Shown here: positions 13,960-56,583 of the stretch, in pieces
Layout of the letters: every line of letters begins with the position of its first letter
Numbering within the stretch: the first letter of the stretch is position 1
Assembly (NCBI RefSeq): GCF_039555335.1
Contig: NC_092628.1
Location: 66,853,292-66,917,291 of the forward strand
Reading direction: 5' to 3'
DNA length: 64,000 bases
From: Amphiura filiformis
Lineage: Eukaryota > Echinodermata > Ophiuroidea > Amphilepidida > Amphiuridae
Notes under the pieces: model-generated
The model's database searches: none
What the model was told of the DNA's origin: nothing
What the model saw: only the letters and a program-made list of their open reading frames with translations
Program-made: the position numbers and the translations under genes

Positions 13960-14100
13960 CTAGATAGCACCAGGCACTGTCTTCACCTGGACAGTAGGAT
14001 TGGAGTATGCTGGTGGCAAATCTCCCTGCATGTGCTGGTAGGCAAAGGCACCGGTTCCAGATGGCAATTGTTGCTGTTCAATAACCACGGTTGTCTGTCG
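13960..14100 (-). CDS. Gene A terminal exon, with PPAY motif
   Basis: Acceptor cttctcattacag; 46 codons from RQTTVVIEQQQLPSG to TVPGAI, then TAG. It contains LPPAYSN, a PPxY motif of the kind bound by WW domains of Nedd4-family ligases; in LAPTM proteins such motifs direct lysosomal sorting. A candidate aataaa on the minus strand lies near 13559-13564. Confidence 0.82.
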   Translation of the reverse strand, partial: RQTTVVIEQQQLPSGTGAFAYQHMQGDLPPAYSNPTVQVKTVPGAI

Positions 14101-17100
14101 CTGTAATGAGAAGATCATTATGGTAAGATCATACTTTCGAGCTACAGTGTGTCCATGAAAGAATTATATCGTCAGTAACTTAAATGTTTAAGTATTTTAA
14201 TGCCCGAACCATACAAAGCTAAATAGTTAATAATTAGTTGACAATTGACCGCACCGTTCTTGAATTATAATAATTTGCAAATCATACCTCATTTTAAATC
14301 CTTTCCACGGAGTTACTCACATAAACTATGATGCTGACAATATGCCTCATGCTCAGTTCTTGGTACTCCAAATACATATCATTGATTGATATTTTGAATC
14401 CGTGGAATAGATTGTAAATGAGGTATTTTTGTAAAATTCTTATATTTCAAGAAAGAAACGGTCAATGTTCAAAATTTAGGAAGTATATTTAAGCTGTTGT
14501 ATCATGCAAATGCATCAGTCCTATTTGATTCGGGCATTATAAAATGCTCAAATATTAAAGTGTCCGACGATACAGTTCATTCAGGCTTCAAAGTAATTGT
14601 TACAAATCACAAATCACAAGACATCTTTGATGTCCCAATAATTCTTTCGAACCTGAATTTTCATCTATATCACCCGGAACCAGGATATTTTATTCCAGTG
14701 GCGGCCGGGATTTTTTTTTTCGATGGGCATGGGGTGAAATCAGATGGGTAGTTTTAAATTTTGGACAATTTTGGCCCAAATTAAGATAATTATTCATTAG
14801 TTTATTAGAGGCATTTAAATTGATATATGTCATATCAAATTCAAAACAAAACTTTTTCATTTGGAGAACTTAATGAGACAAAAGTATCAGTAATCAATTC
14901 AAACGACTTGTCAAACCCTGAACGTGTATTAGTCACTAATGGTGTTTTACTTTACTTTCTCCTATATGTTATGATTGCTCGATGTGATATGTAGCCATCA
15001 AACGATTAAGTGAAACAAAAATTGATAGGATATTAATTTCATGTGCAAACATAATCAGGCCTACTTTAGTGATTATTTAGCAAATACAAGAGCAATATTT
15101 TCCTAGTTTTCTTTGCCTTAATAAAATGTCACCTTCAGATTTTCCACAGAGATGACAAAATCAAAATATTTAGTGCATATCGTTGTTTGAATAATATAAC
15201 TCGAAGGCCGTGACACACCGCTGGGATAGCGACGTTTCACGTATTCACTGTACATGGTCGAGCCCCCAGCGACTAATCCGGGACACCCACCCTGTGGTGA
15301 GGAGTGGGGAGCTGGACCCCTGTCAGAAAAGAACCAGATCTGACTAATATAAGAGCTCCTTTAGATCGGGCAGGAGTCCAAGGAGTTCATCCAGCACATC
15401 TATGAATGCCATTGTGGTAGACTTGCCAACCCCGGGTTGCCAACCCGACCATCGTGGCAAGTATTGGTCGGAAACCTTCCAAACATTATAGTACAACAAA
15501 AGCCAAGGCCCTCAGTCCACAGCAGCGAAAAACAAAAAAAAGTAGGTAACGGGTTGACCAGTGATGGAGCGAAGGGTGCTAAGAATCTCTGGAAGAAAAG
15601 TTTCAAGATAAATTATATATCTGCACCTACAACACAAGAACATTAGAAGGAGAAGACAAACTCACTGATCTTGAGAATGAACTCGAACATATCAATTATT
15701 GGGACATAGTAGGACTCAGTGAAATTAAGAGGAGAGGCGAAGAACTATCAGTCCAAGAGAACGCCAAATATGGATCAGGAGTATTACATATTATATACCT
15801 CATATATAGATTCCGCTCATCTGATTGGTTAAAAGTGGAGTCATTAAAATAGCTGTGCCCCCTTTTTCTATCAAGATGACGTCATACAACAACTGTGCCC
15901 CAGGCACAGTTGATTCTATCCCGGAAAATAATTGGATATTCGCAACCCCGAATACACACATTGCGCACCCACTATACGGCCGGCGTTGATTACGAGTGTT
16001 GAGACTATCGCGGTCACAGTTCGCAATGAATTTGACCTCTCCTTGACGACGATCTTTCACCGGCCGCCGTGAGTGCAGTGATTGTTTACAATCTGTTACA
16101 TGTCAAGGATTTATGCCTGCCAAATGTCACTTTTTAGACAAATTACTACGACCTGGAGACTCGGCAGTGTGTGATGTTAGCACAGAAACGGTAGGGTTGT
16201 TTTAGATATGAAATCGGTAGATATCGGTCCAAATTCTGCACCCTTGCTCTTGCATGCACTGTGTGCATTTAAGCCTACTTAGGCCTATGCAGTTAAAAGC
16301 TTGTACTCGTAGCCTTGTCAGTCAGGAAATCTTTTAACCAATCAAATGAGAAGAATCTATATTATTCGGTATATAAAACAAATATTGACTGCTTAATATT
16401 CGGGGCAGTTTAAAATTATAGGCCCTCGGTGATGTCAAAACCATGACTATGCCCTCAGCTTCGCTTCGGGCATAGTCATGGTTTTGACATCACCTCGGGC
16501 CTATAATTTTAACTGTGCCCCTCATAGCAGTCAATATTTGTATAATAATACCCTGCTATGACAATAGCTGCACTAGGTTAATCGTATAATCTCCTTATGT
16601 GGTTAGCATGGCTGGGCCAGGAAATCCACAAGGTCAGCCAATGTATGTACATGTATTCGGTACATGTGCCATATCTTTTACAATGGTGATAAATTTCTGG
16701 TTTGTTTTATTTCAAAACGCAACATTCGATATTCTAAAGCTTGGTCCAAATCCAAGAGAAGAACCAACTCTAGTAATTTATGTGGTTTCAAATTATATCA
16801 GACGTTGCCTTTTTGATAGAAATGGTGTTTGTTGATGTGCACAGTTTCCCATTAGATCATAACATGCTGTTGTACATCCAAGGTCAAAGGTCTTTTAATC
16901 CATATTTGGCGTTGTTCTGGGACTGACTATAGTGGAACCACGAAGAGGGTCCATGGATAATGACAAGTGTAAATGACAGCAACAGTGGAGTGAGCTTCTT
17001 GTTGAACAAGAACATCAAGGACAAAGTCATCAGTTACATGAATTCGGGAGATAGAATAGCCCAGATTATCATCCAACTTTCATATGTAAAATCGTTATGG

Positions 17101-20100
17101 AAGACTTTGTCTTTAACGCTCAAGTTGGGAAAAAGGAAGATGCAAAAGAAACATCAGTTGGCAACTTCGGATACAAGAAGAGAAATGAACGAGGAGGTCT
17201 TTCAGTAGATTTTGCAGAGGCAAATAAACTGAGAACAGGGAATACTTTCTTCAAATAGAAAGAAAGACACAAGTGGACCGGTAAGTGTCCAAATGGTCTT
17301 CACTAGATTGAAATCGACTATATTCTGTGTGACAGATAACAAACTTGGCTCGATATCCCAGTACTCAACATATTTTCAACAGAAAGTGATTTCAGATTGG
17401 TTAGAAGTATAGCAAACTTCAATATCCGTTACGAAAGGAGGAAACTCGTTAATACGAAGAAAAAGGTCATTGACTTTAACAAGTTACAGGAGGAGAAATA
17501 CATGAAGTGTATGGCACAAGAAAGGCATTAAATAAACCAGAACATAAAGAGCTATGTAAATCAGCAAGAAAGAATATGAAAACCGACATTCGCAATTTTA
17601 ATACAGAGCATCTCTGAAGAAAAATGAAAAATGACAGGAGTGTAAAAAAGGCTAAAGAAGCTTAGTTATATAGGGATAAATCAAATCATTAAAATGAAGG
17701 TAGAAGATGGTACCATCATCAATGACAGTGACAGAAATAGATCAATAATCAAAATAGTAGAAGAATTTTACCAAGACAGTAAAACCCCAGTACCAGAACA
17801 TGAGGAAGATATCCTTGATGTGGGAGCAGATGAGGTGGAAGCAATTTTGAAGTCAATGAAAAATGGAAAATATCCAGGGCCAGATGATAATGGCAGAAAT
17901 GCTGAAGTGTGGAGGAAACACAGTCATCCAAGCATTGACAAAGAGTCCTAATGTTATTATTTTGCACAAAAAAGGCGACACTAAAGATCTTAAAATATAC
18001 CGACCAATTAGCCTTCTCTTATAAACTGCACACATACAAACTCATCACCAAAGTAATCAGTCACAAACAGGATGACCACTCAACTGGACGAAAACCAACC
18101 TGCAGAACAAGCTGGATTCAGGAGCAATTTCTCCAACAATTGACCACTTACAGGCAGTAGATCAACTTGTTGAAAAATCTAGGGAATACCAGCTGAACTT
18201 ATGACTCGCTTTTGTGGATTATGAAAAAGCTTTTGATTCGGTGGAAACAAATTCAGTCATCCAAGCACTCAAAAACCAACGCATAAACACAATCTACATT
18301 AAGACCATCCAGGAAATTTATACCAATGCCACAGCTATACTATAAGGACAATAAACCAATTTTTATCAGAAGGGGAGTACGTCAGGGAGATACCATGTCA
18401 CCGAAGTTGTTTATGGCAACCCTATAGAAGACATCTTCAAGAGATTGAACTGGGTTGATAAAGGCATCAATGTAAATGGAAAGCAATTAAACCATCTAAT
18501 GTTTGCAGATGACATTGTGATCATATCTGGAGATGCAGCCGAGTTGGGAGAAATGTTAACTGATTTGACAACGAGAGTGTCGAGTAGGAAAGTGGGGCTA
18601 ACAATGAACATGTCAAACACATATGTCACGTATGATGATAACAAGGAAATCAAAATTGGAACTGAAATACTGGAACAGATATCCAAATACACATACCTAT
18701 AGGACAAGAAATTTGGCCAACGATACGTACTAACATTTTCAAATGATGGACGGCTTTTCCTCCCAGCTACATACACTAAAAGTACATATCATTAGATTTA
18801 TGAAGTTTACTTCGAGGACTGTTAAATGTTAAAAATATTAATTTTCAATAAATCTGACGGAAGCTAAAGCCCAAGTTTGAGATGGGGGATTCCCCAATGC
18901 CCTCGTGGCACCGGCACCACGGCCTTGTTATTCCTACCTCATTAACCCTGTTGGCGTCAGAAATACGGCCTCTACCATCACGGTATTCTTGGTACTGCGA
19001 CAGGACGCACAAAACGCACACAATCTAAAGTGTTGAAAAAACACAACAGAAGAATGTAAGTATGTTTTTATTTGTTTCACTATTGTTGTCATTTTCACTG
19101 GTCACCCATGCCAGAAATTACACTCACAAAACTGACTGTTTTGGCTTGTTAAATAAGCTGCACTCATCTTATGTTCTACTAACAAATCAAAAAAGCTCAA
19201 AAGGTCGGTTTAGTCTTAGTAATGCCAACAATTTGTTGGGTTTACTTAGAGTTTCAACTTTTCTGATTTTGCTAACTTAAAGAATTTAAGTTGTCAGGGA
19301 ACGTATAGGTTAATGCAGCTCTACTATGACACCCATGCGGCGCCTACGTTGTTGCAACTCAACCAAATTAAATTGTTGCAGCTCTAACAAAATGAGTTTA
19401 TCCAACTTAGCATCTTTCGAATTTGTCAAAATCTGACCCCTTTTCCTCCACAGAATTTAGCTTAATAACTTTTATTTTCGTAATTGGCGCAACAAATCAT
19501 ATGGAAACAACTCTTCTGCAAATTTGTATAAGTATACAATTCATTTGTAATAACCAATTCAATAGTCATGATACAATACAATAAACAATAAACGGAATTT
19601 ATATAGCGCCGTAGCATAAGTATGAACAAAGCGCTTAATCAAGTGATCTTGAGTTAGCATTACTTAAACTACCTCAAAATCCTAAAATTAATAATTAATC
19701 GATCTGATATCAGCTCATTAGCTATTTTGGGTTGACAATACATAGAACAGTAGAAAAGGGCGTTTAAACTTACATCCGTGATGAAGAATGGAAATAGGGC
19801 TATCAGTTCAGCCACAATAGCAACGCCGCCATACTCATAGCCGATCTGCAAAGGTAGAAACCACGGTGAACAATTAAAACACGAAATAATTACAATTCAT
19901 CGAATAATTATAACTCATACATCCTGAATAATCATTGCTCATCTTCTGATTTTCAAAAAATGCTCTACACATTCAGAAAGGGCTAGCTATAAAGCCAAGA
20001 AAATGTGTTTCCTTGCCCTCCACCGACCGACCCAAAATTGGCTAAAATCAGGGTATGCCCTTTAAAAATTGGGGGTTTTTTTTGTTGTTTTTTAGATTTT

Positions 20101-23100
20101 AAGGCTAAATTTGGCCAACAACGTTTTGTTCAGAAGAAAATCATTGCTATAAATTAATGATGTCGCATGTTATATGAGACGATAGATGCACGACAGCGGA
20201 TATAAACAATACCTTTATTCTCATTCTTAAAAGGGCATTTCATGATCCACAGCCTCATCCCCCACTTTTCTCCAAAAAAAATTGAGATTTTTATACCACT
20301 GGAAACCTCTCGCTACATAATATTTATCACGGTACAAAATATTTCTTGCAGATTATTTTGTTTATGAGCAAGGTTTTTAAGTCAAGTCAACACATACATA
20401 TATGACAGCCAGTGAAAAAATTTCACTGACTATCCAGGATTTGAACCTGGGACCCGGGGGGGGCACTCAACTTTGGAAGTGACGGGTATGTGCCTCCCGG
20501 AGTCGCGAAGTAGGGGCCTATCGGGTACAAAGCGTTATTTTAAAAAGGGGTCATTGGGTACAAACAAAATAAAAAAGGGGTCATTGGGTACAATATTTTG
20601 AAAAAAGGGGGTCATCGAGTATAAGATTTAAAAAAAAGGGTCATCGGGTAGAAAATTTTGAAAAAATGGAGCAAAATTTTGAAAATTTCGGCATAATTTT
20701 GAAAAAATGGAGCAAAATTTGACAGTTTCGGCATTTTTTTGTTGCATTTTGATGATGCTATTCTAGAAAAAAGGGGGTCATTGGGTAGCTGCAACCAAAA
20801 AAAGGGGGTCATTGGGTAGCCGCAACTAAAAAAAAAGGGGGTCATCGGGTATTGCTTTTTTAAAAAGGGGTCATCGGGTATAGTCGACTTCAAAAGAGGG
20901 GCCTATTGACAGGCACATACCGTCACTTCCAAAGTTGAGTGCCCCCCCCCCCCCCCGGGACCTGGGACATTCGAATTATTTTGTTTAGCAAAAATATCGT
21001 CAAATTTGAATTACGTTCTGGTATACCAGAATGAAATTACAACACAGTGGCTTTTGGAGCAATGTAATACACATAGTCATGCATAACTCGCAAATGCAAA
21101 ATCGGAATCAACTGAAATTTTAGGAATAAGCTTTTTTCGTGGATATCTACTAATTTCAGTTGATTCCGATTTTGCGTTAGCGAGTTATCCATGATTATGT
21201 ATATTATAATGCTCCATGGCCACTGTTGTAATTTCGTTATGGTATACCAGAACGAAATTCAAATTTGACGATATTTTTGCTAAACGAATTAATCTGCAAG
21301 AAATTTTTTGGCACATAAACATTATGTAGCCAGCGCTTTCCAGTGGTATAAAAAGCTCAACTTTTTTTGAGAAAAGTGGGGGGGATGAGGCTGTGGATCA
21401 CGAAATGCCCTTCTAAGTGTTTAAGAATGATCAATAAAATTCATGTTGTAGTGTTTATTTTTGGTAGGGGCCTATTCTTTCGTCCCTTACCGAAATCACG
21501 GAGTACAAACTGACAGCTATAGCATAGAGATACCAAACAAATCCAACCGATTTGGCCACAATGAACGGGCTCAACAGCTGCTTGTTGTCCTGTGGAAAAA
21601 ATAAAAGAACAACATTAAAGTAATGATACAAATTGGAATTGGTGAGCATTCTTCTATTTTGAAATACAAAAAAGTCTTTGAGCAACGCGAAGATGGTAAA
21701 TGAAAGGCAAACGTATTGGATACAGTAGAATTATCACATAGCATAGACTGGCCCCCAGTCTCGGTTCGGTTCCATCTCTGGATAATGTAACAATAAATAA
21801 TTACATAATGCCCTATGAAAAAAATGCCAAAGTCCTCTACCCCCCCCTTATTTTGTTCAATGCCAAAAATCCATTCCTCTTCATCCACAAATCGACGCCA
21901 CTAATTATACCACCACAGTCAACCATGCAGCAATATAGAAATATACTCGTATTATAAGTGAACGCGAAAGTCCATTGAGCGCTGATTCCTCGACTGGTCC
22001 AATCTGTTAGAGATCTCACTTCCAAATATTCGTTCAACGAAGTACGGTGATTCCGATGTCAATTACGAAAGCCCCGCCCCAGTTTCAATTCAAATATGGT
22101 AGCACAAAATGGGGGGCAAAGTGAATTTCAGGGGGGGCAAAATTGGCACATTTTGCGCAAAATTGCCGCAAAAAGTGAAAATTTACGTGGTTTTGGGGGT
22201 TTTGCCTCAAAAGTGGGGGGACAAACTGGGGGGCAAGAAAATACCCCCCCGTAGCGCCGCCACTGACTTTGTATAAGCCTGCCGGATAAGCCTATGCGAA
22301 TCCAAGCAGCCATTTCATTCAACCACAGACCTAGACTTCTCCGTAGTCTACTTGCCCATTTTGCATACATTGTACTCAAGCATAAAACGCTGAATTGTAT
22401 TAATTTGTGTGCAATTGATAGATTTTCACATCTGATATTTTCAGTCACCATACTTCCTCTGTTTGTTAGCTTCCCAAGAATTTTTTACTCGATCAATAAA
22501 CTGGTAGATTCCAAAAGCGAACCAGTATAATTATGAAAGATATGTTACATTCGATAACTTTTATTGTCACTAATCATCTAATTATATAAACTCTTTATGA
22601 CCATTTTACTATTGAACACTTTAATTTTAACATGTTTAATAAACATCAGTATAATTTTGAGTTCAACGGAATGCGTTCATCATGTTCATTATGCATGCGC
22701 GTATTTTTTTTTGGGGGGGGGCTTTGGGGCGCCAACCCCCGGGGTAAAAAGCAGGGGCGGCAAAATCGAAGGGCGGCGGAAGAAGAGGGGCGGCAAACGA
22801 AGGGGCGGCGGAAGAAGAAAGGGCGGCAAAAAGAATTAGTAAAGAAAAAAGGGCGGAAAAAAGTAGGCTATACAAAATTTTGGAAAAAATTGTACTATAC
22901 ATCAAAATGTGTTGCTTTTAGGGCGCTAGCGCTGAAAATCCTTTTTTTTTGCTCTTCACTTTTTCAAACCACCGAAAAATTGTTTGGGTCAACCTTTTCG
23001 GGCTGTTGAGGAAGGGGCGGCAAAATTTAATTTTCTTCAGCCCCCCGGGGTAGGGGCGGCCACGGTACGCCACTGTTATGATTAAATAATAATGACATAT

Positions 23101-26100
23101 TTTTTATCAAAATTCGACTATGGCATAGTCTACCACAGACCCTTAAAAGATAACCAACCTGGTTGATACCGACGATAACAAAGATACTGGTGATGAACAC
23201 GAAGGAAAGGGTGATGTCAGCCAGCACGTAGTCCACTGTCAACGCAACGATGTAGGAGTCAATGTCCAGATTACCAAACAAACCCGGAAGTTCTGCCTGG
23301 ATTTCATCTGGAGAAAGAAAAAACGTGGGTTACTCCTTCATGTAATTATACACGAAATTAGGGTTAGGGTTAGTTTAGGGTTAGGATTAGGTTTAGGGTT
23401 AGGATTAGGGTTAGGATTAGCTTACACGAAATAATTACATGAAGGATCGACCAAAACGTGGCTAAATCGTCCGTTAGTCCTTAGTGGTATTAGAGACTGG
23501 ATTCAGTTAGTCCTTTCTCGTTACCCAGAGGATGATTTAAGGAAGCCCCATCATGCACTGTAAAAGTGTTATCACTAGAGTTTCAACTGCCACTTTACTT
23601 TTCAAATCCCATTGAACTCTGTGCAAAAGATGTTGTTTTAGAATTGCCCGTGTGTCATTATTACTTGGTCGATTTCAGATTTAAAGTGATGTATGCATGA
23701 AGGATAATTCACACCTTCTGTAGATAACATAAAATGTGAAATCGACCAACTTTTTGAAGGTGTTTTTATTGTAAATATATCTGTCCAAATTCAAATTTAA
23801 CTATGCACGTGTGTATGCAGTGGGCGGGCAGTGGTGTCATGTTCACTCACACAGCTGTGCTAACCGCAAGACTTGCTGGGAAGTGCTTAAATCATCCTCT
23901 GCTCGTTACCCAAAAGGTTAGAGCAAATATTGTACCGTCCAAAAAGGATTGTCAAGACGCGCACAAGTCTTACAAAATGACATTTCCTGACTGACGTATA
24001 AGTTTGTAGAAATTAGCCTTAGTTGTGCCAGCTTAGCTTAGACCGGGGATGGGGATAGTGCGAGTCGTTATGGGTTGTTGTCGAGTTCCTACAGGAAGAT
24101 CATTTAAAACAAACAAACAAACATAATTGATCAAATTTATAATGTTTAAAACGTCAGATTAAGGGATGTATAGAGGGCGGGAACCTGGTTTGGATTCCAG
24201 AGGGAGTGTGTCTGTAAGAAAAGGGCTAGCTCAGATCGCGCGCCAAAGAAGCTATAGCAGTTCAGAAATTGCAATTATATCCTAGCCTTGAAAAAAAAAT
24301 AGGCAGAGCTGGGAATCGAACCCTGGACCTCCCCATTGTGAAAGGTTGAGAGGTTGGCCATTTATACTCTATAAAGATTTACATCACACCTGTATAGATA
24401 GAGTCCACAGAATATACCGGAGTGTTTTTATAATCTGTAAAAAATATGCATTTTGGGTTTCAACCAAAAACCGACTAAACCACGTTAATAGTTAGCATTT
24501 ATTATTTGCTTTAATCAGTTGATTGATTATAGTATTTTCTATTTTGAAGAGAAGAAAGAACTTGGGGACATCAAATTCTGGCCGTTCATTATTTATCATG
24601 CTTATGATTTGTCGTGCACTTCTCATAAATTAGACTTCTTCGTAGTCTACTTGCCCACTGTGCATACTCTTGCTATTACATTCAAGCATAAAACCCTGGT
24701 TTGTATTAATGTGTAATTGATAGCTTTTCAGATCTGATCTTTTCAGTCACCGTACTCCCTCTGTTTGCTAGCTTCCCAATACTCGGGCTTTCGCGATCAA
24801 TAAACTGGTAGATTCCAAAATCAGAGATGTTCAGTATTGAAGTGAGCCAGTAGAATTATGCAAAGATATGTTGCATTCAATAACATAATAATAATTATGC
24901 ATAATTATGTACTAAACTTTTACTGTCACTAACAATATAAACATTTTGTGACCATTTACTATTGAATACTTTAATTCGAATACATTATAAGTATAGTTAT
25001 GAATTCAACGGAATGCGTTCATCATGATTAAAAACATAATTATTTTATTTATCAAAAATCGACTATGGCATAGTCTACTCATGAATGCGTTTCAATTTAA
25101 TAACTTACACAGCGTATTCTCCGTATTATGGATGCCAGCCCAACTGAAGGAAAACGAAGCTATTCCCAGCAGTGCAATGACCTGCAAAAAAACAAAACAA
25201 ACAAAAAACGTACAAAGACGTAATTAACAAAGTTTTTAATTAAAAGTCAAGATATTAGACTTGTATAAATCAACAAGCTTGAGTGTCGACTCGAGTTGAG
25301 TCATATAGGCTCGAGCAGTCGATTCATTTGAGATTTGAGACTCACTTAAGTCCTGAGGTTCGAGTCCGATTCATTTGGGATTTGAAACTCGGGTCGAATC
25401 ACGAGTCCTCAAATGTCGAGTTCGAATCAAGTCGTTCAAATTCTTGTATATATAGCCTTCAATGCCATTCATGTTGTTTCTGAGTTGTATTAAGGAATCA
25501 GATATAAACGTTTGCACAGTATTTTTGTGTGACCTGAGATCAACTTGCATTCTGAATACGAGGAATGTCCCTCTGATATCAAATAATTTTGATTTTATGA
25601 AACTCGCGATAAAATACTAATTTTATGGCAAATTATTAAAATTTGAGAGTTTTTTTAAATTTGTTATATTTAACAGTCCTCAAAGTAAGCTTTATATATC
25701 TAATTATATGTATACTTTTTTTAAAGTACATAAATAGATTTATAAAGTTTACTTTGAAAAGTGTTTGTAGCTGGGATGAAAAGCCGACCATCGATTGACC
25801 TTTCATATTGAAGATATACATTTTCCCAAAAAGACTTTTGGGGGGGATGGGGGGGGGGGTAGGGAAAAAATCTATATCTTCGATACAAAAGGTATGATGG
25901 ACGAATTTTCATCCCGGCTACATAAACTTTAAGTAGCCTACATAACATATCATTAGATTTATACAATTTACTTCGCGGACTATTAAATTTCAAAATATCA
26001 ATTTTCCATCATTTACCATAAAGTGTGTATTATATCGCGAGTTACAAAAAAATCAAATTTATTTGATATCAGAAGGACTTTCTTCGTATTCAAAATTCGT

Positions 26101-30197: not shown

Positions 30198-30514
30198 TTT
30201 CGTTTTTCCTGATGCGTGACAAAAATATTATTGCATGAACTTGAAGCGCAACCAAACGACAACCTTTCTATTCAAGGAGTGGTGCTTCCGTGCTGCAATG
30301 AAATAAAATAATTGTCGCGTGTCGTGCGGAATATGGAAGCGTAGACTAGGCTACTCCACAGTCCAAGTTGAGTGTGGGTATGAAAACTATTGTGCGACTC
30401 ATATTCAGTGATTTGCTCATGCGGATGATTGCAAAAATCATCAAAATTCGGATTTGGACACCTTTTAAAGTGTCAAAGCTGTGAACATATAGCCTGCTAG
30501 ACCCAAAAGCCATG
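30198..30514 (-). promoter_or_regulatory. Upstream region of gene A
   Basis: This should hold the 5' UTR and promoter of gene A by position. No TATA box or other defined promoter element was identified with confidence. Confidence 0.35.
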
Positions 30515-31151
30515 TATACTGCGCCAATAAAGTATCCTTACAGTTGGAAAAATAATCACAATTTTAAAACTGAACAATATTGGGGTAAATAATCCTGCAC
30601 ATTATGACACCACATTGAATCCAATGTGACCTCAAGAAGTAAAGTTACAAGCATTTGAATAGACGAAGGTCCAGTTTTAAAAGTGACAAACTGGCCTATA
30701 CAAGGCGCAAAAAGATTCCAACAAGCGAAACAAAGTGACAACACAGTTTCTTCAATGAAGCGTTATTTAAAGCAGTTTTATTTCAGTTTTACTTCTCTGT
30801 ACTTTTCAAAGCTTTCATTTTATTTGTCAGTTCTTTTGTTTCAATTTTCTTTTGTTCCTTTTGTTTTAAATTAAAGCCAAACGCATAAATTAGCCATTCA
30901 CCACTCTCAACCCAGATGTCTAGTCTGTGGTGTTTTGAATAGGCTAGTTTGTCACTTTTAAAACTGTACCTTCGTCTAATCAAATGCTTGTAACTTTGCT
31001 TCTTGAAGTCACATTGGATTCAATGTGGTGTCATAATGTGCAGGATATGTGCTAGTGCATATGTTAAAAAAACAAATTTACCCCAATATTGTTCAGTTCG
31101 GAAATTGTGATTATTTTTCCAAGTGTAAGGATACTTTATTGGCGCAGTATA
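30515..31151. mobile_element. 637-bp mariner/Tc1-type MITE (fold-back)
   Basis: tatactgcgccaataaagta at the left is the exact complement of the right end, and the arms pair for about 190 bp (30515-30705 against 30945-31151). Ends next to TA fit a TA-target transposon. Confidence 0.82.
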
Positions 31152-31364
31152 TTTAGACGACATATTAAGACATTTTACACGCATGTATATTTTGAATGGG
31201 GCTTCAATTTTGTACTGCTGCTTTCCTTGTTTTTGTTTTTATTTTGTCAATTTTTTATTACAAAAATAGGCCTACCTAATGACAATTTAAAGGACTTCAC
31301 GTTTAGGAAAATTATACAGAATTTTTATTTTTTACACTCTCGCTGGGCTCACTGAATTTGTTTT

Positions 31365-31405
31365 TTGTTTGTTTTTGTTTTGTTTTTGTTTTGTTTTTGG
31401 GGTTT
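31365..31405. repeat. (GTTTTT)n-type simple repeat
   Basis: Repeated gtttttgtttt units. Confidence 0.85.
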
Positions 31406-33210: not shown

Positions 33211-33237
33211 AAGCCAAAATATAACTTATTTAAAACG

Positions 33238-35150: not shown

Positions 35151-35161
35151 GTCTGAAGATT

Positions 35162-39300: not shown

Positions 39301-42300
39301 ATATCTACTGAAGACAGCATTTATTGTACTGACCGATGCAAGATATCTACGGAAAACAGCATTTATTGCAATAACTGATGTAAGCTATCTACTGAAGACA
39401 GCATTTATTGCAATAACTGATGCAAGCTATCTACTGAAGACAGCATTTATTGTACTGACCGATGCAAGATATCTACTGAAGACAGCATTTATTGTACTGA
39501 CTGATGCAAGCTATCTACTGAAGAAAACGTTTATTGCACTGACCGATGCAAGGTATCTACTGAAGACAACATTTATAGCAGTGATGCAAGCTATCTACTG
39601 AAGACAGCATTTACTGCACTGACCGATGCAAGCTATCTACTGAAAACAACATTTATAGCACTGACTAATGCAAGCTATCTACTGAAGAAAACGTTTCTTG
39701 CACTGACCGATGCAAGCTATCTACTGAAGACAACATTTATTGCAATAACTGATGCAAGCTATCTACTGAAGAAAACGTTTCTTGCACTGACCGATGCAAG
39801 CTATCTACTGAAGACAACATTTATTGCAATAACTGATGCAAGCTATCTACTGAAGACAGCATTTATGGCAATAACTGATTGCATGATATCTACTGAAGAC
39901 AGCATTTATTGTACTGACCGATGCAAGATATCTACGGAAGACAGCATTTATTGTACTGACTGATGCAAGCTATCTACTGAAGAAAGCGTTTATTGCACTG
40001 ACCGATGCAAGCTTTCTACTGAAGACAGCATTTATGGCAATAACTGATTGCAAGATATGTACTGAAGACAGCATTTATTGCAATAACTGATGCAAGCTAT
40101 CTACTGAAGACATCATTTACTGCACTGACCGATGCAAGCTATCTACTGAAAACAACATTTAATGCAATAACTGATGCAAGCTATCTACTGAAGACGGCAT
40201 TTATTGCACTGACCGATGCAAGATATCTACTGAAGACAGCATTTATTGCAATAACTGATACAAGCTATCTACTGAAGACAACATTTATTGCAATAACTGA
40301 TGCAAGCTATCTACTGAAGACAACATTTAATGCAATAACTGATGCAAGCTATCTACTGAAGACGGCATTTATTGCACTGACCGATGCAAGATATCTACTG
40401 AAGACAGCATTTATTGCAATAACTGATGCAAGCTATCTACTGAAGACAACATTTATTGCAATAACTGATGCAAGCTATCTACTGAAGACAACATTTATTG
40501 TAATAACTGATGCAAGCTATATACTGAAGACAACATTTATTACAATAACTGATGCAAGCTATTTACTGAAGACAACATTTATTGCAATAACTGATGCAAG
40601 CTATCTACTGAAGACAACATTTATTGTAATAACTGATGCAAGCTATCTACTGAAGACAACATTTATTGCAATAACTGATGCAAGATATCTACTGAAGACA
40701 ACATTTATTGCAATAACTGATGCAAGCTATCTACTGAAGACAACATTTATTGCAATAACTGATGCAAGCTATCTACTGAAGACAACATTTATTACAATAA
40801 CTGATGCAAGCTATCTACTGAAGACAACATTTATTGCAATAACTGATGCAAGATATCTACTGAAGACAACATTTATTGCAATAACTGATGCAAGCTATCT
40901 ACTGAAGACAACATTTATTGCAATAACTGATGCAAGCTATCTACTGAAGACAACATTTATTGCAATAACTGGTGCAAGCTATCTACTGAAGACAACATTT
41001 AATGCAATAACTGATGTAAGCTATCTACTGAAGACGGCATTTATTGCACTGACCGATGCAAGCTAGCTACTGAAGACAGCATTTATTGCAATGACTGATG
41101 CAAGCTATCTACTGAAGACAGCATTTATTGCAATAACTGATGCAAGCTATGTACTGAAGACAACATTTATTGCAATAACTGATGCAAGCTATCAACTGAA
41201 GACAACATTTATTGCAATAACTGATGCAAGCTATCTACTGAAGACAACATTTAATGCAATAACTGATGCAAGCTATCTACTGAAGACAGCATTTATTGCA
41301 ATAACTGATGCAAGCTAACTACTGAAGACACCATTTATTGCAATAACTGATGCAAGCTATCTACTGAAGACAACATTTATGGCAATAACTGATTGCAAGA
41401 TATCTACTGAAGACAGCATTTATTGCAATAACTGATGCAAGCTATCTACTGAAGACACCATTTATTGCAATAACTGATGCAAGCTATCTACTGAAGACAA
41501 CATTTATTGCAATAACTGATGCAAGCTATCTACTGAAGACAACATTTATTGTAATAACTGATGCAAGCTATCTACTGAAGACAACATTTATTGCAATAAC
41601 TAATGCAAGCTATCTACTGAATACAACATTTATTGCAATAACTGATGCAAGCTATCTACTGAAGACACCATTTATTGCAATAACTGATGCAAGCTATCTA
41701 CTGAAGACAAAATTTATTGCAATAACTGATGCAAGCTATCTACTGAAGACAACATTTATTGTAATAACTGATGCAAGCTATCTACTGAAGACAATATTTA
41801 TTGCAATAACTGATGCAAGCTATCTACTGAAGACAACATTTATTGCAATAACTGATGCAAGCTATCTACTGAAGACAGCACTTTTTGTAATAACTGGTGC
41901 AAGCTATCTACTGAAGGCAGCATTTATTGCACTGACCAATGCAAGCTACTACTGAAGACAAGACAGCATTTATTGCAATAATTGATGCAAGCTATCTACT
42001 GAAGACGGCATTTATTGCAATAACTGATGCAAGCTATATACTGAAGACAGCATTTATTGCAATAACTGATGCAAACTATCTACGGAAGGCAGCATTTATT
42101 GCAATAACTGATGCAAGCTATCTACTGAAGATAGCATTTATTGCACTGATCGATGCAAGCTATCTACTGAAGACAGCAATTATTGCACTGACCGATGCAA
42201 GCTATCTACTGAAGACAGCATTTATTGCACTGACCGATGCAAGCTATCTACTGAAGACAGCAATTATTGCACTGACCGATGCAAGCTATCTACTGAAGAC

Positions 42301-42690
42301 AGCATTTATTGCAATAACTGATGCAAGCTATCTACTGAAGACAGCAATTATTGCACTGACCGATGCAAGCTATCTACTGAAGACAGCATTTATTGCACTG
42401 ACCGATGCAAGCTATCTACTGAAGACAGCAATTATTGCACTGACCGATGCAAGCTATCTACTGAAGACACCATTTATTGCAATAACTGATGCAAGCTATC
42501 TACTGAAGACAACATTTATTGCAATAACTGGTGGAAGCTATCTACGGAGATGGCATTTATTTGCACTATATTCTATGTATGCTATTTACTGAAGACAGCA
42601 TTTTACTGCACTGATTTGTGTTAGCTATCTACTGAAATCCACATGTATTCCACTGACTGATGTAAGCTGATGCATGCTATCTACTGACAT
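36332..42690. repeat. 42-bp satellite, block 2 (about 150 copies)
   Basis: Same monomer as block 1. From 36.3 to about 40.2 kb the array shows mixed variants in a recurring order. From about 40.2 to 41.9 kb it is homogenised to the type with gcaataact. From 42.1 to 42.5 kb it is mostly the gcactgacc type. The edge after 42.55 kb is degenerate. The main variant contains TTATTGCAATAA, a perfect 12-bp palindrome. Open frames in it arise from the repeat length. Confidence 0.92.
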
Positions 42691-43668
42691 GATTTACGCC
42701 ACAGCTTTAATCTCAAAATGTTTGTGGTACAAAAACAAATTTGGTATTATTTTAAAGGTCATTAACTCTAATTTGTTTCATGTTTCAAGTAAACCTTGGC
42801 ACTATGCAGGGACAAGAATGTTCACACCAGAAAGCAATGCATGCCGCGAGGTGCCAGAATACCCCGTACCTTATACATACAAAGTATAAGAAATATAAAC
42901 ACAATTATGCCGGTCATTTTTCACGCGTGAACAAACCCATTGAATATTTTGCTGAAGAATTTCATGGACGACAAGCCGTGGACAAAACCCCACTTATTGT
43001 TTTACGTCATCTAAGATTTGAAGTCAAGGCGGAGTCTAATAGTATTTTAGCCAATAGAGAATGTTTTCTGCGTTTTCTGAAATTTTATTAATGAGCTCAT
43101 TCAGCATGGCTCCTTTCTGTGAATTTCGTTTGAAGGTTTTAATTTACAAATATTCACACGTTGTACTGTTCACTAATATCATCACTGCTAATGCTATGCA
43201 ATGTGTATGGACAGCATTTTTAAATTTCGAAAGTGGGCATTAAAACTAATGCAATTAGTCAACTTTTCTCTTAGAGTGAACTTGGGGGTTAAAACATAAA
43301 AGCGATCTTTCCTAAACACATTTGTGAAATTGGTATTTTAATAAGAAATTACAGTAACACATCATTCCATGCACATGAAATGTCGAAGACTGTAAAACTA
43401 TTAGGTTGTTTTTTTCTCAGCAGTCTTCCAGAAACAGGTTGTTTTTAATTGTCTCAGAGATGAGGTAAAAACGGCCTGGTAGTCTCTTCTCACTTTTTCA
43501 TCTATGTTGTGAAGTTGAAAATATAGAGTTGGCTTAATCATTTGAATAATGATAACATTAAAATAATCTTAAATGTTAAATTAATACTCTCCCATGCAGC
43601 AGAATCTGACGTAAGGCAGCCACAGGTACAGGGTAACTTGCCATTTGACAAAAACCATTGGGCTACTC
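42691..43668. other. Sequence between satellite and gene B promoter region
   Basis: No repeats or coding blocks recognised. Confidence 0.45.
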
Positions 43669-44096
43669 CGGTTGAAATCCATACACCTCATATTTAAGTC
43701 TAGTCAGTGGGAGTCATAGACATACCACCTAGACCTATGACTGCCCATCCCTTACCACAGCGAGAGGTGAAGCCCCGTATCCAAGGTGATATTGACGGAT
43801 TGACGGGGTTACTAGGCGCGGAGATATATCGCGTACATGCTGACTCGCTCGTTTGCGTGGTTACTGCGCCGTTATCGCCCTCGTCAAATGCAACATGTTC
43901 CGAGACGCGAACATATCTGCTTGCTTGCGCATTATCAAGACGCATGATAGACGGCACCCGAAATCATGCGATTGTCCAATCAGAAATGTGTCTACGAACT
44001 AGACCACTCCCACTGACTAAGAATCACCGATCACACTTCTGTGTGAGCGATAAGGTCATGTCTAGGTGGTATATGGATTTCAACTAGAATAGCCCA
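43669..44096. mobile_element. 428-bp MITE just upstream of gene B
   Basis: The ends tgggctactccggttgaaat and the complement at 44062-44096 are inverted copies; a second inner pair uses agtcagtgggagt. The centre is CpG-rich (43810-43950). Its right edge is 176 bp from the gene B start codon, so it may overlap the promoter. Confidence 0.75.
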
Positions 44097-44272
44097 TTAT
44101 TCAAATAGGCTACATAATAATTATTGTAATTTGAATCGTTCGTCACAGTCACATAAATCGGACTTGGGTGAGGTCGCGCCCTTCTGCGGCACGTACACAC
44201 TAACATTTAAACGATTTTCAAATTCACACGTTGCATTTTTGGCATTTCTTCTTTGAAATATTTTAACGCAAA
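44097..44272 (+). promoter_or_regulatory. Proximal upstream region of gene B
   Basis: Only 176 bp separates the MITE from the start codon. This must hold at least part of the 5' UTR and perhaps the core promoter. No TATA box was clearly seen. Confidence 0.35.
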
Positions 44273-44344
44273 ATGGCAGTTATGCAAACATGTTGCTGTT
44301 GTGGTGTGAGGCAAGGATCTGTCGCAAGTGCGATATATAGCATG
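44273..44344 (+). CDS. Gene B exon 1
   Basis: Codes MAVMQTCCCCGVRQGSVASA and IYSM (24 codons, as in gene A), donor gtaagt, phase 0. The Cys4 run could be acylated, as juxtamembrane Cys clusters often are; that is inference. Confidence 0.85.
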
Positions 44345-47300
44345 GTAAGTGGAAAAAATAAAAATTATAATTTGTATGAAACCCTATAAAAATAAAGTAC
44401 GAGATGATAGATGACGCGTGTGTAAATATTTTTAAACAGATTAAAAAAATGTTTTGTTATGTATATTTTGCTTATATGTTATTTATGTTATGTTATGTGA
44501 TGTGATGTGGTGTGATGTTATGTTATGTTATGTTATGTTATGTTATTTTATGTTATGTTATGTTATGTTATGCTATGTTATGTTATGTTATGTTATGCTG
44601 TGTTGTGTTGTGTTGTGTTATGTTTATTCCTTCCTTGTTATCTTGTTTTAAAATACAACGTTTGTCTCATTTCGTGTTTTTTTTATTTGAAGATTACTAA
44701 AATAAATGAGCAGTAAGACAAGTTGTTTCTTTCATATCTTTCATAACAGGTTATCGCTATAATTGGGATTATATACTTTGGTTACAGTGCAGCAGTGATT
44801 GGTGTGGTGAAAGGTAATTTATTCTATATAAAAACGTGTATCAAAGCGCTTTATACCGGTATACATTTTAATCCTCTGTCGAAAGAGTATACCCCAAATT
44901 ATTGGCATGTTGAAGGGGGGGTGGGCGGGCTGGGGGGAGGCAAGCGTTATTTGGCGGGCCGAGATGGGGGCATGCGATTTTTGGCGGGCCGTTCGGAAAT
45001 TTACCCCCCCGACTCATAATTATTGAGCAGCCCCTAATCATCTCTTCACAATGGAAATTTTCATTTTAGATTAAGCATTTCAATTGGAATAATTCCGGGG
45101 AATAATTCTGTTTAAAATATTTCTTCCATTTCGCCTGGGCTACTTCACCATAATGTCGCATTCTATAACAGGCCTGTTCTATAGCAGCTGGTCCATGAAG
45201 CTCCGTGTATAGGGGGGACCGGGGCAAGTCCGCACTCGGGGCAAGTCCGCCCACCCCATGTTTCTGATCTCGTGACTGCTGGAAAAGTACAATGATGATG
45301 TAATTAGCTGGCACACGTCATAACTAAGTACCCAAGAAAACAAGACAGTCTGACACATCTCGCCACAGAAATTATCGTCAATAAAAATTCCCTTTAAAAG
45401 GGAAAGCCAGCCTCAATGTAGAAGAGGTCTTGTAATTAGTTTTGGTCAATGTGAAAGGCATTTTTAGGATCACGCTTACATCCATGTTACATGACAGTCC
45501 ACCAAACCATCAACGATGAGAACATGTACACTGAAACAGCAGAAAACATTAATTCCTCATCTCATGTCAACTCTTAATTCATTACTCCAAATTGTTCTGG
45601 TACTGGTCTGTTTTGTGTTTGTTTTTTGGTTTTTGGTTTTCTTTTTGTCTTTTCAGCTTTTTACCCACGATATCTCAATTTCCAATTTTGTAATACCAGA
45701 ACTTACGAACTCAATATCTTCGCTTAGGAGTGTCCGATTTCACTGCTTTCGATATACCATGTCACAAATACACTGCCGGTTTGAGTTAACTTACATGTAC
45801 ATTTTATTTTAAAATAACTTGATATTAATTCGCAATGTATAGTTTAAGCCTACTATATTATAATAAATAGTGGCCAGCACAAAGGACTGATTTACTCACT
45901 ACAATCTTCACTCTTAAACTGTGTTTTTCTGAATGTGCTGATCATGTTGATTGCTAGTCGGAAACTCCTGCGAAGCTATGGACATGGCATCTTACCTACT
46001 CCATTCTATAACAGTCTGCCTAGTGCCTTGTGTGTTTTCTCTTCAATCATTTTGTTGAATGTAATTTTATGAATCAAATAAAAAAGATAGAAAGTGACTT
46101 CAAATAATTTATGTGTCTTTTTATTTATACTAAAGAAGTTATTAAATTAATAAAGTAAGACAATTTATTTATCTATAAGTGCATGTCAAATGGGGTACAT
46201 TGTTCAATACTATAGGCCTACATGCACAAAACTGATGTTTATGATAGCAACCATTTCATCAATAACATTTTCAGTCATTTTTATCCATAAAACGACACAG
46301 GATATGATAGATAAATACTTTCACATCAATGGTCCATATGATCACAGATTGTTGAGAATCTGTGATATGATGAAGATTTTGATTCTATAGATCTGTTATC
46401 AACATGATATCACGCTGTTCAGTGGTCAAGGAGTAAGGACCCACGGTCAAGGACACTGATATGACATCATAGGTGATGTAATTTTCTTCTGCTGACCATA
46501 TGATGCTGTATATTAACTATTATTGTTACATTTAGGCCTATACCTAGAACTTTTAAAGTCATAATTGGTTCAAACATAACTTTGGTAATACTCATTCGTT
46601 TTCATTCGTTGAAACGGCAAAACATACTTACTTTTCCTTACAAATCGAATAACAATAATTTTAAAACATTCCACTTCAAAAAGTAAAATAAAATAATTCT
46701 TACCAATACCAATAAAGTTAATCTCTTGAGCATACAAACCCAATCTCAGAAATAGATACCAGCCCGCGTATGGGCTGGCGATAATCTCTTGAGCATACAA
46801 ACCCAATCTCAGAAATAGATACCAGCCCGCGTATGGCCTGGCGAAAACGTTTTTGAGTCAAGGAAGTTTACATTTTTGAAATTAGTAATATTGTAATAAT
46901 CTCAAGACCTTGCAGAGACGGTTTTCGTTATTATATTTATTTGGAAGGTGAACGTTTTGCCCAACATATTATGCAATTAAAAGATTGACATATTGTGTTT
47001 AGTAGGCATAACACGAGTTAAAGAAAAAAAAGTAGCGTTGGGGCAAGTCCGCCCTGTATGTGAAGGGGCAAGTCCGCCCTGTATTTTCCCCAGGCGGACT
47101 CCCGGAGCGGATTCGCCCCATCGGTGTATTATGCAAAATATTGATAATAGTACCTTTAAGAAGAGTAAAACTAAAGACTCTCTTAAGGGTAAAAAATATG
47201 CACTGAAAAAAAAACACTGAAACAAAATAGTTAAGAGTATAAGCCTATTGAGTAGCATGCTTTATTAATAAAAAGCTTCAAAATGTAGGTTAAGCGTCTG

Positions 47301-53300: not shown

Positions 53301-56300
53301 ACATAATTACATACTTTTAATAAAATTGTATAAATAAACTGATAGCATTCTGACCATTACGTAGGGATTTTTATAAAATCTGTTTGTGTTCATAAAACTA
53401 GTCATGCACTGCGGTAATATAACACAGCCCATTGTCAGGACTTAGTACACGACCTCGTACTGCTATTGATTTTAAGCGGGAACTTTGATTTTAGACATGG
53501 TACACGTTGACCATGCGTTGACTCAATTGTTCCACTTTCACCTGTACTGCTTTTGTTCAGTATCGCGGCAAGTATGATACTCACTTTGATGTAGTATTTG
53601 ACCAGCTTCCATGTGTATTACTTCCATGGTAACATACACTATTATAGGCTGATCCCATTTCATGTTTCAGCAAAAATGTCAACTCTGTAGGGCTTTGGCT
53701 GTACAATAATCCATGAAAAAACTTGTGTAAAAAGGAATGGGCCCCCAATGGGAGCTTTGATGTGATGTGCTGAAATCCGGGGGGGTGGGCACTCCCACTT
53801 TGGAGGTGAGGCGTATGATATGTAGGGCTGTTAAGACCCCCTTTTTCACCATCGCTGTCACCCAAAGACCCCATTACCAGCACATGCTCTGTCACCCAAA
53901 GACCCCATGTTTTTCCTTTAGATCTGTCCCAAAGACCCTTATATTTCCATCTGAACACTGATTTGGTTAATTCTTTTGAAATAAACCATTTGAAGCCATA
54001 GAACTAGAAATTCAATTTTCGAGGCTTCTTTTTGGCTCTCACCCAAAGATTAATTTTCAAATAAAGTCATATTCTCACCTAATGCCTCCTAGTTTAGATC
54101 CAAACGGTTCGTCTCTCCATCGACCCCCTATATTTTATAAATGTTGCTCTCATCGAATGCCAAAACTCATGCTCTCATCCTTACAATGACCCCATATTTG
54201 TTATTTTGCTCCCACCGGATGCCCCGTACTGCCCAGCCATATACACATATCCATTTCACATTGAAGAGTCACCCCCGTTTTGTTTTTGTTTGTTTGTTTC
54301 TTTCTTTGTTTTTGGGGCAGTTCTCGTTCTGATCTTATCATTGTGAGATAAGTTGATATTGAAGTATGAATTTCAAAAAGGGGCTATGAAGTAGACTTGA
54401 ATGGGGTCTTTGGGTGACAGCGATGGTGAAAAGGGGGGTCTTAACAGCCCTACATACGCGTCACCTCCAAAGTGAGAGTGACCAGGCCCGTACGCAGGGG
54501 GTGCGGTGGTGGGTCGCAAAAACGTTCAAAAATATGACAATTTGCGAGCGTATCGAGCAAAAAAACAGGTTTTTTACACCTTTTTTTTGGCCAAAAAAAG
54601 GTCCAAATTTTTGAGGAAAAGTCCACTTTTTACAAAATCGCCCCCTTTAGAAAAAAGGTCCACTTTTTCAAAATCAGCACCCCATCCCCTTCCAAAAAAA
54701 TCCTGTGTACGGGCTCAGTGACTCCCACCCCCGCGGATTTCAGCGCATTACATCAAAGCTCGCATTGGGAATTTATAGGAATTTTTATATCGTTTCAATT
54801 ACAGTTCAATTTGGTGCCAATGGCGTGGCAATTCTCGACGCATTTTTTGCTCTCTACATCCTGGCGGTCATCATATTTATATTTGTAGTGATTGCTTGCA
54901 TTTTCGTCTTCGTGGGTATCAGCCAGGTAATTTGCACTTTTTTTTTCAATACAACAGTCACTGACAGTATTTACTGCCAAGATCTATGAGATGAGAGAAG
55001 AAATTGTGTCAATATAACCGGAATGTCCCGTTACATACTGTCTCATTTTGTTGTCAAACATTCAAATTAGTAAAATGAAGTACAACAAACTTGACAAAGA
55101 GTAAATTTCTACTTGTTGGGTGATCCCGGAGGATCATGCTTCGTTTTTGTTTAACAATTTTAGGTCTATACCGTTAGAATTGAAACAACCAATTTTATTA
55201 TCGTGGTGTATCGGCTTCATAAAATGTGCATGGCTGGGTAAACTGTGGCAGCATAGCATATCGAATTCAAAATGTCTTCAAATAATTTGTGTCATTTTTT
55301 TTTAAATTTTATTTTACACATACAGGATTCCAAAGCAATGTTGATTCCATTTATGGTGGCCGCAGGACTGCATTTGCTCTGGTACGTCCTTCTCTTTATC
55401 GTGGATGCGGTCTTCTTGGGAATGGTAAGCTATCATTGCCTACCGTTTTCCTATAGTTCGCATGGTTACGCTGATACCATTAAAGCAATGATAGATTTTT
55501 CTAAATAATCTTGATTTTTACTTCTTTAGAAAAATGTTTAAAAATTCAACAACTTGTTTACCAATAAAACAACTTGTTTAAAAGTTCCAATTTAACAACT
55601 TGTTTAAAAGTTTAAACAACTTATTTAAAAGTTCAAGTAACATTTGTTGAAATTTTTAAACAAGTTGTTTAATTTTAGTTTTAAACAAGGTTGAGCAATG
55701 CACATGGTAAGCAGTAGTTGTTTAAAGTCATGCAAGTTGTTAAAACTTAATAAACAACATTGTTTAAAACCTATTAAGGCCTATTATTCAACCTTTTAAG
55801 ACAACATGTTATAACAAAAAACTGAACAATGTTGCTTAAAACTTTAAACAACAACCCTTTAAACAACGTCTTTTTAAACAGCAAAATTTTAAACAGTGTT
55901 TTAACAGTGAAGATTCCGAGACTTATTCAAAAAATCTCAGATTTGTCAAATACATTTATACAGTTTATTAATTAGTCGTGTAAAATTGAAAAGATCTTGA
56001 ACGTGTATTTTTTTAAATTTAAATAGAGTTCAGCTATTTTATTCAATCAAATGTTGAATAATCCAGAACTCGGACATGGTGCTGAAACGATATATATATA
56101 TTGAGTTGGTGATCCGTGACACTGAAAATCTGCAAATGTATATAAGAACAAAGTATAATAAAATTTAAAATATTCGAGGGAATAATACAAATGCATGCAG
56201 CTTCAAATGTATGTAATGGCCCAGTTAACAAACATGGTAGAAACCTGTACGTTTTACAAAAGTGTTGTTGTTTCAGCCCTCTTTGTAACATATATTACTC

Positions 56301-56583
56301 AAGAACCACAGGACCTATAAAGTATTAGTATATCTGTGATCCTGATGGTCTGTGCATATTTGAATTCTTCTACATGGTCAATGCAATTTTTGCCAAAGCT
56401 CACTACCATTCACAAGATGCTGTGAACTTCCAAATCGCACCAGTCATGACAGTTTAAAATAGTTGCTAACCTTAAACTTAAAGGTATATCTTTCTATTCT
56501 TCCAGATAGGTGGAGATATCCTGTACTATGGATATGCTTATTTAGCAACAATCATTCTTCTGATACCGTTCCTCATCGGTGAT
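44273..56583 (+). CDS. Gene B: LAPTM-like four-helix membrane protein (partial gene span, spliced)
   Basis: Five exons with GT-AG junctions that stay in frame: 44273-44344, 44750-44813, 54805-54926, 55326-55424 and 56506-56583, giving 145 residues so far. Intron phases (0, 1, 0, 0, 0) equal those of gene A. It starts with CCCCGVRQGS and has four hydrophobic segments, the last ending FLIGD before a gtgagt donor. The exons coding the cytosolic tail and stop were not found up to 64000, so the gene either continues past the window or has lost its 3' end. Intron 2 is about 10 kb and holds MITEs and tandem repeats. Role inferred from gene A: lysosomal or endosomal membrane protein. Confidence 0.75.
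44470..44625. repeat. (TTATG)n microsatellite
   Basis: About 25 imperfect copies of ttatg, with gtgat and ttgtg variants, inside gene B intron 1. The open frames through it are repeat artefacts. Confidence 0.92.
44750..44813 (+). CDS. Gene B exon 2
   Basis: Acceptor ctttcataacag; codes VIAIIGIIYFGYSAAVIGVV and K plus one base; donor gtaatt, phase 1. It completes helix 1. VIA-x-x-GI at its start matches gene A exon 2. Confidence 0.82.
44910..45015. mobile_element. GC-rich element fragment with ggcgggccg words
   Basis: The phrase tttggcgggccg occurs twice (about 44950 and 44980) between G and C runs. It resembles the interiors of the G-rich MITEs elsewhere, but no termini are defined. Confidence 0.4.
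45205..45260. repeat. ggggcaagtccgc repeat, two copies
   Basis: ggggcaagtccgc occurs at about 45221 and 45237, and again twice at 47036-47085. Together with the later copies it may mark the ends of one element of about 1.9 kb. Confidence 0.5.
45261..46718. other. Gene B intron 2, unassigned part
   Basis: No recognised coding sequence or repeat boundaries. Confidence 0.45.
46719..46844. repeat. 63-bp direct repeat, two copies
   Basis: Units start at taatctcttgagcataca (46719 and 46782) and each contains a hairpin built on ccagcccgcgtatgggctgg; the second copy has one change in that stem. Confidence 0.85.
47036..47125. repeat. ggggcaagtccgccctgta direct repeats
   Basis: Two copies (about 47040 and 47065), followed by an inverted version (ggcggact...cggattcgcccc). 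Confidence 0.55.
47126..49580. other. Gene B intron 2, unassigned part
   Basis: Mostly unrecognised. At about 48952 the words cagggccggatttaccagtc look like a TE terminus, but no partner was found. A G-run lies at 49385-49400. Confidence 0.4.
49589..49956. mobile_element. CAGTGGCGTAGAT hAT-like MITE, complete
   Basis: Starts cagtggcgtagat and ends with the complement atctacgcctatg, flanked by the exact 8-bp duplication gtcacaga (49581-49588 and 49957-49964). Inside, a block containing gcgcgcgaagcgcgcgaaaa occurs twice (about 49699 and 49772). Confidence 0.88.
49965..50904. other. Gene B intron 2, unassigned part
   Basis: AT-rich DNA with a short attaa repeat near 50555-50572. No features recognised. 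Confidence 0.4.
50905..51665. repeat. Dispersed repeat D, copy 1
   Basis: Matches 59255-60540 over about 760 bp, from catgatgcagtcatgt through ggttgtacacatgt to gtgatgttaactaggcaaat. Copy 2 carries an extra 508-bp insertion. It contains no coding motifs. Confidence 0.8.
51690..52185. repeat. Tandem repeat, four copies of about 145 bp
   Basis: Each unit carries ctttcatttgacaccactcg, a run of g, taccttcttggcattt and ggtcttatgaggagtgt. Units begin near 51690, 51835, 51980 and 52125. Confidence 0.8.
52443..52508 (-). CDS. Candidate first exon of an unknown gene
   Basis: The minus strand reads MAGTGKEASVSAEIRDGAVQ then EF up to a gtatct donor-like site. Composition is coding-like (GC-rich codons in an AT-rich setting). 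If not spliced, the frame continues 14 codons to a stop. No family is recognised, and a downstream exon was not found. Confidence 0.3.
52509..53735. other. Gene B intron 2, unassigned part
   Basis: No recognised feature. Confidence 0.4.
53740..54775. mobile_element. Large inverted repeat containing a CACTC-type MITE
   Basis: The left arm (gggagctttgatgtgatgtg at 53751, then gctgaaatccgggg, gggcactcccactttggagg and the gggctgttaagacccc block) pairs with the right arm, split as 54395-54480 and 54715-54775. The interior carries caaagacccc and caccgaatgcc words of the hAT-like MITE family at 7135. Confidence 0.7.
54481..54714. mobile_element. Nested CAGGCCCGTAC-type element
   Basis: Starts caggcccgtacgcag and ends gtgtacgggctc, an imperfect inverted pair, flanked by agtgac on both sides. 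It splits the right arm of the surrounding inverted repeat. The interior repeats ggtccactttttcaaaa-like phrases. Confidence 0.6.
54805..54926 (+). CDS. Gene B exon 3
   Basis: Acceptor gtttcaattacag; begins QFGANGVAILDAFFALYILA, continues through a strongly hydrophobic helix and ends VGISQ at a gtaatt donor, phase 0. It aligns with gene A exon 3, which ends VGINQ, but with a shorter luminal loop. It lies 30 bp beyond the edge of a fold-back repeat. Confidence 0.83.
55326..55424 (+). CDS. Gene B exon 4
   Basis: Acceptor tttacacatacag; 33 codons beginning DSKAMLIPFMVAAGLHLLWY; donor gtaagc, phase 0. Same length and key residues as gene A exon 4. Confidence 0.87.
55535..55912. repeat. aacaacttgtttaaaag repeat block
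   Basis: Irregular direct and inverted copies of aacaacttgtttaaaa across the segment, ending in gttttaacagtg. Probably a MITE interior, in gene B intron 4. Confidence 0.55.
56506..56583 (+). CDS. Gene B exon 5
   Basis: Acceptor ctattcttccag; codes IGGDILYYGYAYLATIILLI then PFLIGD; donor gtgagt, phase 0. It is the fourth helix, the counterpart of gene A exon 5. Confidence 0.83.

Follow-up and report, generated by a model that had tools for sequence, protein, structure and literature searches.

What do two genes lying head to head in the genome of the ophiuroid Amphiura filiformis encode, and how are they related to each other and to the LAPTM family of membrane proteins? The genes lie in a stretch of 64,000 nucleotides (contig NC_092628.1 of the NCBI RefSeq assembly GCF_039555335.1, positions 66,853,292 to 66,917,291 of the forward strand), hereafter the window, in whose positions all coordinates are given. 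An original prediction, made from the DNA letters, had described them as a divergent pair of LAPTM-like paralogues; they are called here gene A (minus strand) and gene B (plus strand). We consider it likely that A and B are intact-looking, anciently duplicated genes in head-to-head arrangement, which encode short four-helix LAPTM-like proteins, the product of gene A being sorted by a NEDD4-type ligase through its PPAY tail.

The exon structure of both genes is shown as a sequence model (Table 1). Gene A comprises six exons, from 30197 down to 13960, and encodes 201 amino acids followed by a stop codon; for gene B five exons were located (44273-56583), which give 145 amino acids up to the donor site. 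GT and AG bound every complete intron, five in gene A and four in gene B, and the nine acceptors have a mean pyrimidine content of 0.76, versus 0.50 for every AG on both strands of the window. The joined models contain no in-frame stop, and upstream of the start codons in-frame stops are found at 11 codons (gene A) and 3 codons (gene B). The exon plan that had been proposed for the opposite-strand genes, with exons 1 to 5 ending in phases 0,1,0,0,0, was recovered in both, between 13960 and 56583. Likewise, the start CCCCG-x-R-x-G-S was read in both proteins, and the tail motif PPAY (LPPAY) was found in the last exon of gene A. The cysteine cluster in this start is a putative lipid-attachment site. 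Exon 4, which had been called identical in the two genes, has the same length in both, 33 codons, but its residues agree in only 10 of 33 positions.

The relationship between the two proteins was explored by pairwise comparison. They are identical at 62 of 157 positions (39%; BLASTP, E of 2e-28), and their alignment score was not reached in any of 1000 shuffles of A, in which hydrophobic and other segments were permuted separately. In the MAFFT alignment introns 1, 3, 4 and 5 occupy identical columns with identical phases, and intron 2, which is of phase 1 in both genes, is placed two columns apart in a gapped loop. In tblastn, gene B weakly matches exon 3 (58% over 24 residues) and exon 4 (E of 0.004) of gene A, and searches with A and B revealed no third copy within the window. 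Identity at codon positions 1, 2 and 3 is 0.545, 0.671 and 0.350, respectively, over 143 aligned codons; the higher identity at the first two positions than at the third indicates constraint at the protein level. At fourfold sites of identical residues agreement is limited to 4 of 25, and blastn of locus A against locus B with default filters gave no match at an E of 1e-3. Together these two results indicate that the duplication is old, and a recent duplication was rejected on the blastn result. The silent sites seem to be saturated, and the proteins to be under constraint.

With a similarity that is well above chance, A and B are paralogues that arose from one ancestor by a duplication long ago. 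Their adjacency on opposite strands, with facing start codons approximately 14 kilobases apart, agrees with an old, local duplication that involved an inversion, a plausible reading. This event had been part of the original prediction; the paralogy and the common gene structure are supported, and A and B may be each other's closest relatives. It is an ordinary sort of gene duplication and, should the relation to LAPTM discussed below not hold, a routine old one in a repeat-rich genome.

No final coding exon of gene B was found in 56584-64000. The search covered phase-0 open stretches of at least 20 codons that follow an AG with a pyrimidine content of at least 0.55, downstream of 56583; none of the candidates carried PPxY and none was convincing. 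Two plus-strand L/PPxY strings downstream of gene B, both LPFY, were discarded, their open stretches not being tail-like. Since the matching intron of gene A (between exons 5 and 6) spans 5673 bases, the last exon of gene B may be outside the window; it may also have no PY motif, and so have been missed by the search. Exon 5 of gene B is followed by tandem arrays, at 57864-58748 (units of approximately 73-188 base pairs) and at 61029-64000 (146/292 base pairs), which together make up 2654 of the 7417 bases after this exon. The last intron of gene A contains a near-perfect inverted repeat (16410-16512; two 50-base arms, 92% complementary, with a 3-base gap), flanked by a second pair of arms of 22 bases each (16372-16393 and 16526-16547); this is perhaps a small foldback element.

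To relate the pair to LAPTM, profile comparisons were used, with provisional versions of the human LAPTM4A, LAPTM4B, LAPTM5 and CD9 sequences. The profile of A and B matched the profile of the three LAPTM sequences with a probability of 92.9 (E of 3.6e-7, score 50.2), and LAPTM4A alone with a probability of 48.7 (E of 0.00018). The score of 50.2 was not reached in any of 300 block-wise column shuffles (maximum 36.1, mean 15.7), and CD9, the only non-LAPTM protein used as a control, scored 14.7, which is near the shuffle mean. The first 49 columns, corresponding approximately to exons 1 and 2, gave on their own a score of 43.1 against the LAPTM profile (E of 1.6e-7; 0 of 200 shuffles). These comparisons support a distant relation of A and B to LAPTM, mainly through the first 49 columns.

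The N-terminal cysteine cluster and the Arg before helix 1 of LAPTM are present in A and B as CCCCGxRxGS. The features in common with LAPTM4A, LAPTM4B and LAPTM5 are a Cys-rich N-terminus with R-x-G (the LAPTM5 sequence used is without that Gly), a similar order of hydrophobic stretches, a Pro-Phe pair that starts helix 3, and, in A, the C-terminal PPxY. Four hydrophobic stretches were found in A (residues 3-42, 67-99, 106-133 and 135-156), and LAPTM4 has four transmembrane helices; LAPTM5 is given five in a review (PMC13170719). The likeness to LAPTM is carried by helix 1 and the cysteine cluster with its R-x-G, by the overall layout, and by the PPAY tail of A.

Several observations weigh against placing the pair with LAPTM. 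The profile search of the joined exons with PF03821 (Mtp), the family named in the original prediction, gave no listed match to A or to B up to an E of 10 (cut-off 25.2 bits). Nearly all of the LAPTM signal comes from the first 49 columns, which hold the cysteine cluster and helix 1; past helix 1 the similarity is near background. From exon 3 onward the score is 18.3, reached by 6 of 200 shuffles, and without the first 24 columns, up to helix 4, it is 16.1, reached by 16 of 200; the reversed A and B profile, at 22.7, scores higher than both. When each protein was compared singly with LAPTM4A, 3 of 1000 shuffles reached the score of A and 21 of 1000 that of B. Opposite the long loop that joins helix 3 to helix 4 in LAPTM4A, LAPTM4B and LAPTM5, both A and B are gapped. 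The segment CVWxCYxxI, which is present in all three human sequences, does not follow helix 4 of A, which reads FFITDRQTTVV there; B was read up to FLIGD. At the threshold used, the helices of gene B fuse into one hydrophobic stretch (residues 14-145). The motif PPxY occurs 7 times, the copy of gene A included, in open stretches of at least 22 codons in the six frames of the window, so that it is not rare by itself. Moreover, gene A has one PY motif, whereas LAPTM4a has three and LAPTM4b two, according to an earlier study (PMC3214061).

The same observations bear on whether A and B could be true LAPTM members of PF03821 whose rapid divergence included the loss of the long loop and of the segment that follows helix 4. 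The N-terminal Cys/Arg/Gly pattern, the four hydrophobic stretches of A, the significant profile match and the C-terminal PPxY with S after it, which the LAPTM5 sequence used also has, would all agree with this, and the PF03821 model may be narrow, since LAPTM4A and LAPTM4B score 78 and 67.7 bits on it, far under the 417 bits of LAPTM5. However, PF03821 is unlisted even at the permissive limit, the similarity past exon 2 is near background, and both the loop and CVWxCYxxI are absent; we regard full membership as unlikely. The assignment to Mtp/LAPTM that had been proposed therefore stands for the LAPTM-like character of the pair, but not for the family as modeled. It is possible, if doubtful, that A and B form instead a separate family nearer to DUF7027 (PF22954) and DUF4728 (PF15860), their likeness to LAPTM having arisen by convergence, through a Cys-rich motif next to the membrane and a tail with a PY motif. 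The LAPTM signal lies mainly within the first 49 columns, as this would suggest, and DUF7027 is the best Pfam match of A (19.4 bits, E of 0.001, residues 81-125), followed by DUF4728 (15.1 bits, residues 85-133). The original prediction had taken a best match to a different tetraspan family as grounds for giving up the assignment, and the best match of A is indeed to another family, but both matches are below their cut-offs (27 and 26.7 bits, respectively), and on DUF7027 the LAPTM4A, LAPTM5 and LAPTM4B sequences used score 18.9, 17.7 and 10 bits; on DUF4728 LAPTM4A scores 16.5 bits. Since LAPTM4A nearly equals A on DUF7027, this weak score cannot separate A from LAPTM. Gene B reaches DUF7027 only at 7.4 bits (E of 5.5), has DUF7807 as its best match (12.1 bits, E of 0.16), and does not list DUF4728 at E up to 10.

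That either gene, or each of them, is a pseudogene, or that the exon models are chance assemblies, is very improbable. The last exon of gene B that was not located in 56584-64000 would be in line with it, but the joined models have no in-frame stop, GT-AG is found at every junction, and codon positions 1 and 2 are more conserved than position 3. Tetraspanins, represented by CD9, have only the four-helix layout in common with the pair, and no tetraspanin Pfam match was listed for A or B. Matches in the Protein Data Bank (PDB) were dismissed as membrane-helix noise: those of A and of the A and B profile to Kv1.2-type potassium channel chains, and one of A alone to a glycosylphosphatidylinositol (GPI) transamidase chain, all have E values of at least 0.1. 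Searches for relatives of the A and B profile gave 164 pattern matches in viral contigs and 61 in genome contigs, of which none was confirmed, and A alone gave no pattern match in the viral contigs. We favor the reading of the pair as LAPTM-like short-loop tetraspans that are not filed under PF03821, which the sequence comparisons partly support.

The behavior of LAPTM4 and LAPTM5 suggests how such proteins may work. Most likely both ends of each protein face the cytosol, the N-terminus bearing its cysteine cluster close to the membrane, and four helices joined by short loops lie between the N-terminus and the tail. Through the PPAY motif of its tail, A would be bound by the WW domains of a NEDD4-type ubiquitin ligase. 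The ligase would then direct protein A, possibly together with a partner cargo, to the late endosome or lysosome. Expression, membrane topology, binding to WW domains and sorting to lysosomes are all predicted by analogy with LAPTM4 and LAPTM5, and protein A is probably sorted by a NEDD4-type ligase. In PMC3214061, late endosome/lysosome location and NEDD4 binding of LAPTM4 are demonstrated, PY motifs are required for the co-precipitation of LAPTM4a and LAPTM4b with Nedd4, and the lysosomal sorting of both is partly dependent on PY. The N- and C-termini of LAPTM4A and LAPTM4B are cytosolic according to a recent review (PMC13170719).

In the available text of one paper, LAPTM genes are treated only as vertebrate neighbors of syndecans (PMC1464127). 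Among the literature matches listed, none accounts for LAPTM intron phases, and this gene type is unaccounted for in those on DUF7027/DUF4728, LAPTM phylogeny, PY motif/Nedd4 and sea urchin, and in those on deuterostome duplication and LAPTM4B gene structure.

The window reads as eukaryotic by its introns and is repeat-rich, with retroelement-like frames; scans for Rfam families at the gathering threshold and for transfer RNAs returned nothing. The 42-base-pair satellite between the gene starts occupies 33923-35105 and 36335-42668, is assigned to neither gene, and has a 14-codon unit that is open over long stretches. Its segments 34760-35125 and 37796-38161 have the same DNA sequence, which points to a duplication of part of the array, either recent or introduced by the assembly. 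Pfam matches of the satellite frame to DUF6812 and phage ssDBP were set aside as repeat artefacts, because no single stretch passes. On the minus strand an open frame at 7586-8020 resembles reverse transcriptase (RVT_1, 22.7 bits, below the cut-off of 29.6), and the adjoining one at 8066-8866 has no Pfam match; together these frames may be a Penelope-type element. Two plus-strand open frames look by eye like remnants of long interspersed nuclear elements (LINEs), at 197-1117 (with a sub-threshold DUF1664 match only) and at 4545-5153 (with a sub-threshold PHD-finger match, 17.3 bits).

Table 1. Exons of genes A and B and the interval between them, in window positions.
Feature	Position	Strand	Description
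Gene A exon 1	30126..30197	-	24 codons, Met start, CCCCG-I-R-S-G-S Cys cluster; ends phase 0; donor gtaagt
Gene A exon 2	25109..25181	-	Helix 1; ends phase 1
Gene A exon 3	23159..23307	-	Loop and helix 2; ends phase 0
Gene A exon 4	21491..21589	-	Helix 3, 33 codons; ends phase 0
Gene A exon 5	19774..19845	-	Helix 4, 24 codons; ends phase 0
Gene A exon 6	13960..14100	-	Tail, LPPAYS; stop codon 13960-13962
Interval between start codons, genes head to head	30198..44272	.	Holds 42-base-pair satellite in two blocks
Gene B exon 1	44273..44344	+	24 codons, Met start, CCCCG-V-R-Q-G-S Cys cluster; ends phase 0
Gene B exon 2	44750..44813	+	Helix 1; ends phase 1
Gene B exon 3	54805..54926	+	Helix 2; ends phase 0
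Gene B exon 4	55326..55424	+	Helix 3, 33 codons; ends phase 0
Gene B exon 5	56506..56583	+	Helix 4, 26 codons; donor gtgagt; ends phase 0

As a tentative extension, A and B may stand for a family as yet without a name, whose members are four-helix proteins with short loops and a PY tail. Such a family would connect LAPTM with DUF7027 and DUF4728 and so suggest that these Pfam families are one superfamily with a common Cys-cluster entry helix. If the relation to LAPTM is true, there are LAPTM-like proteins with a conserved exon plan that the PF03821 model does not cover. The pair would then help to test whether LAPTM, DUF7027 and DUF4728 have a common origin, and whether sorting by a PY tail predates the long loop.

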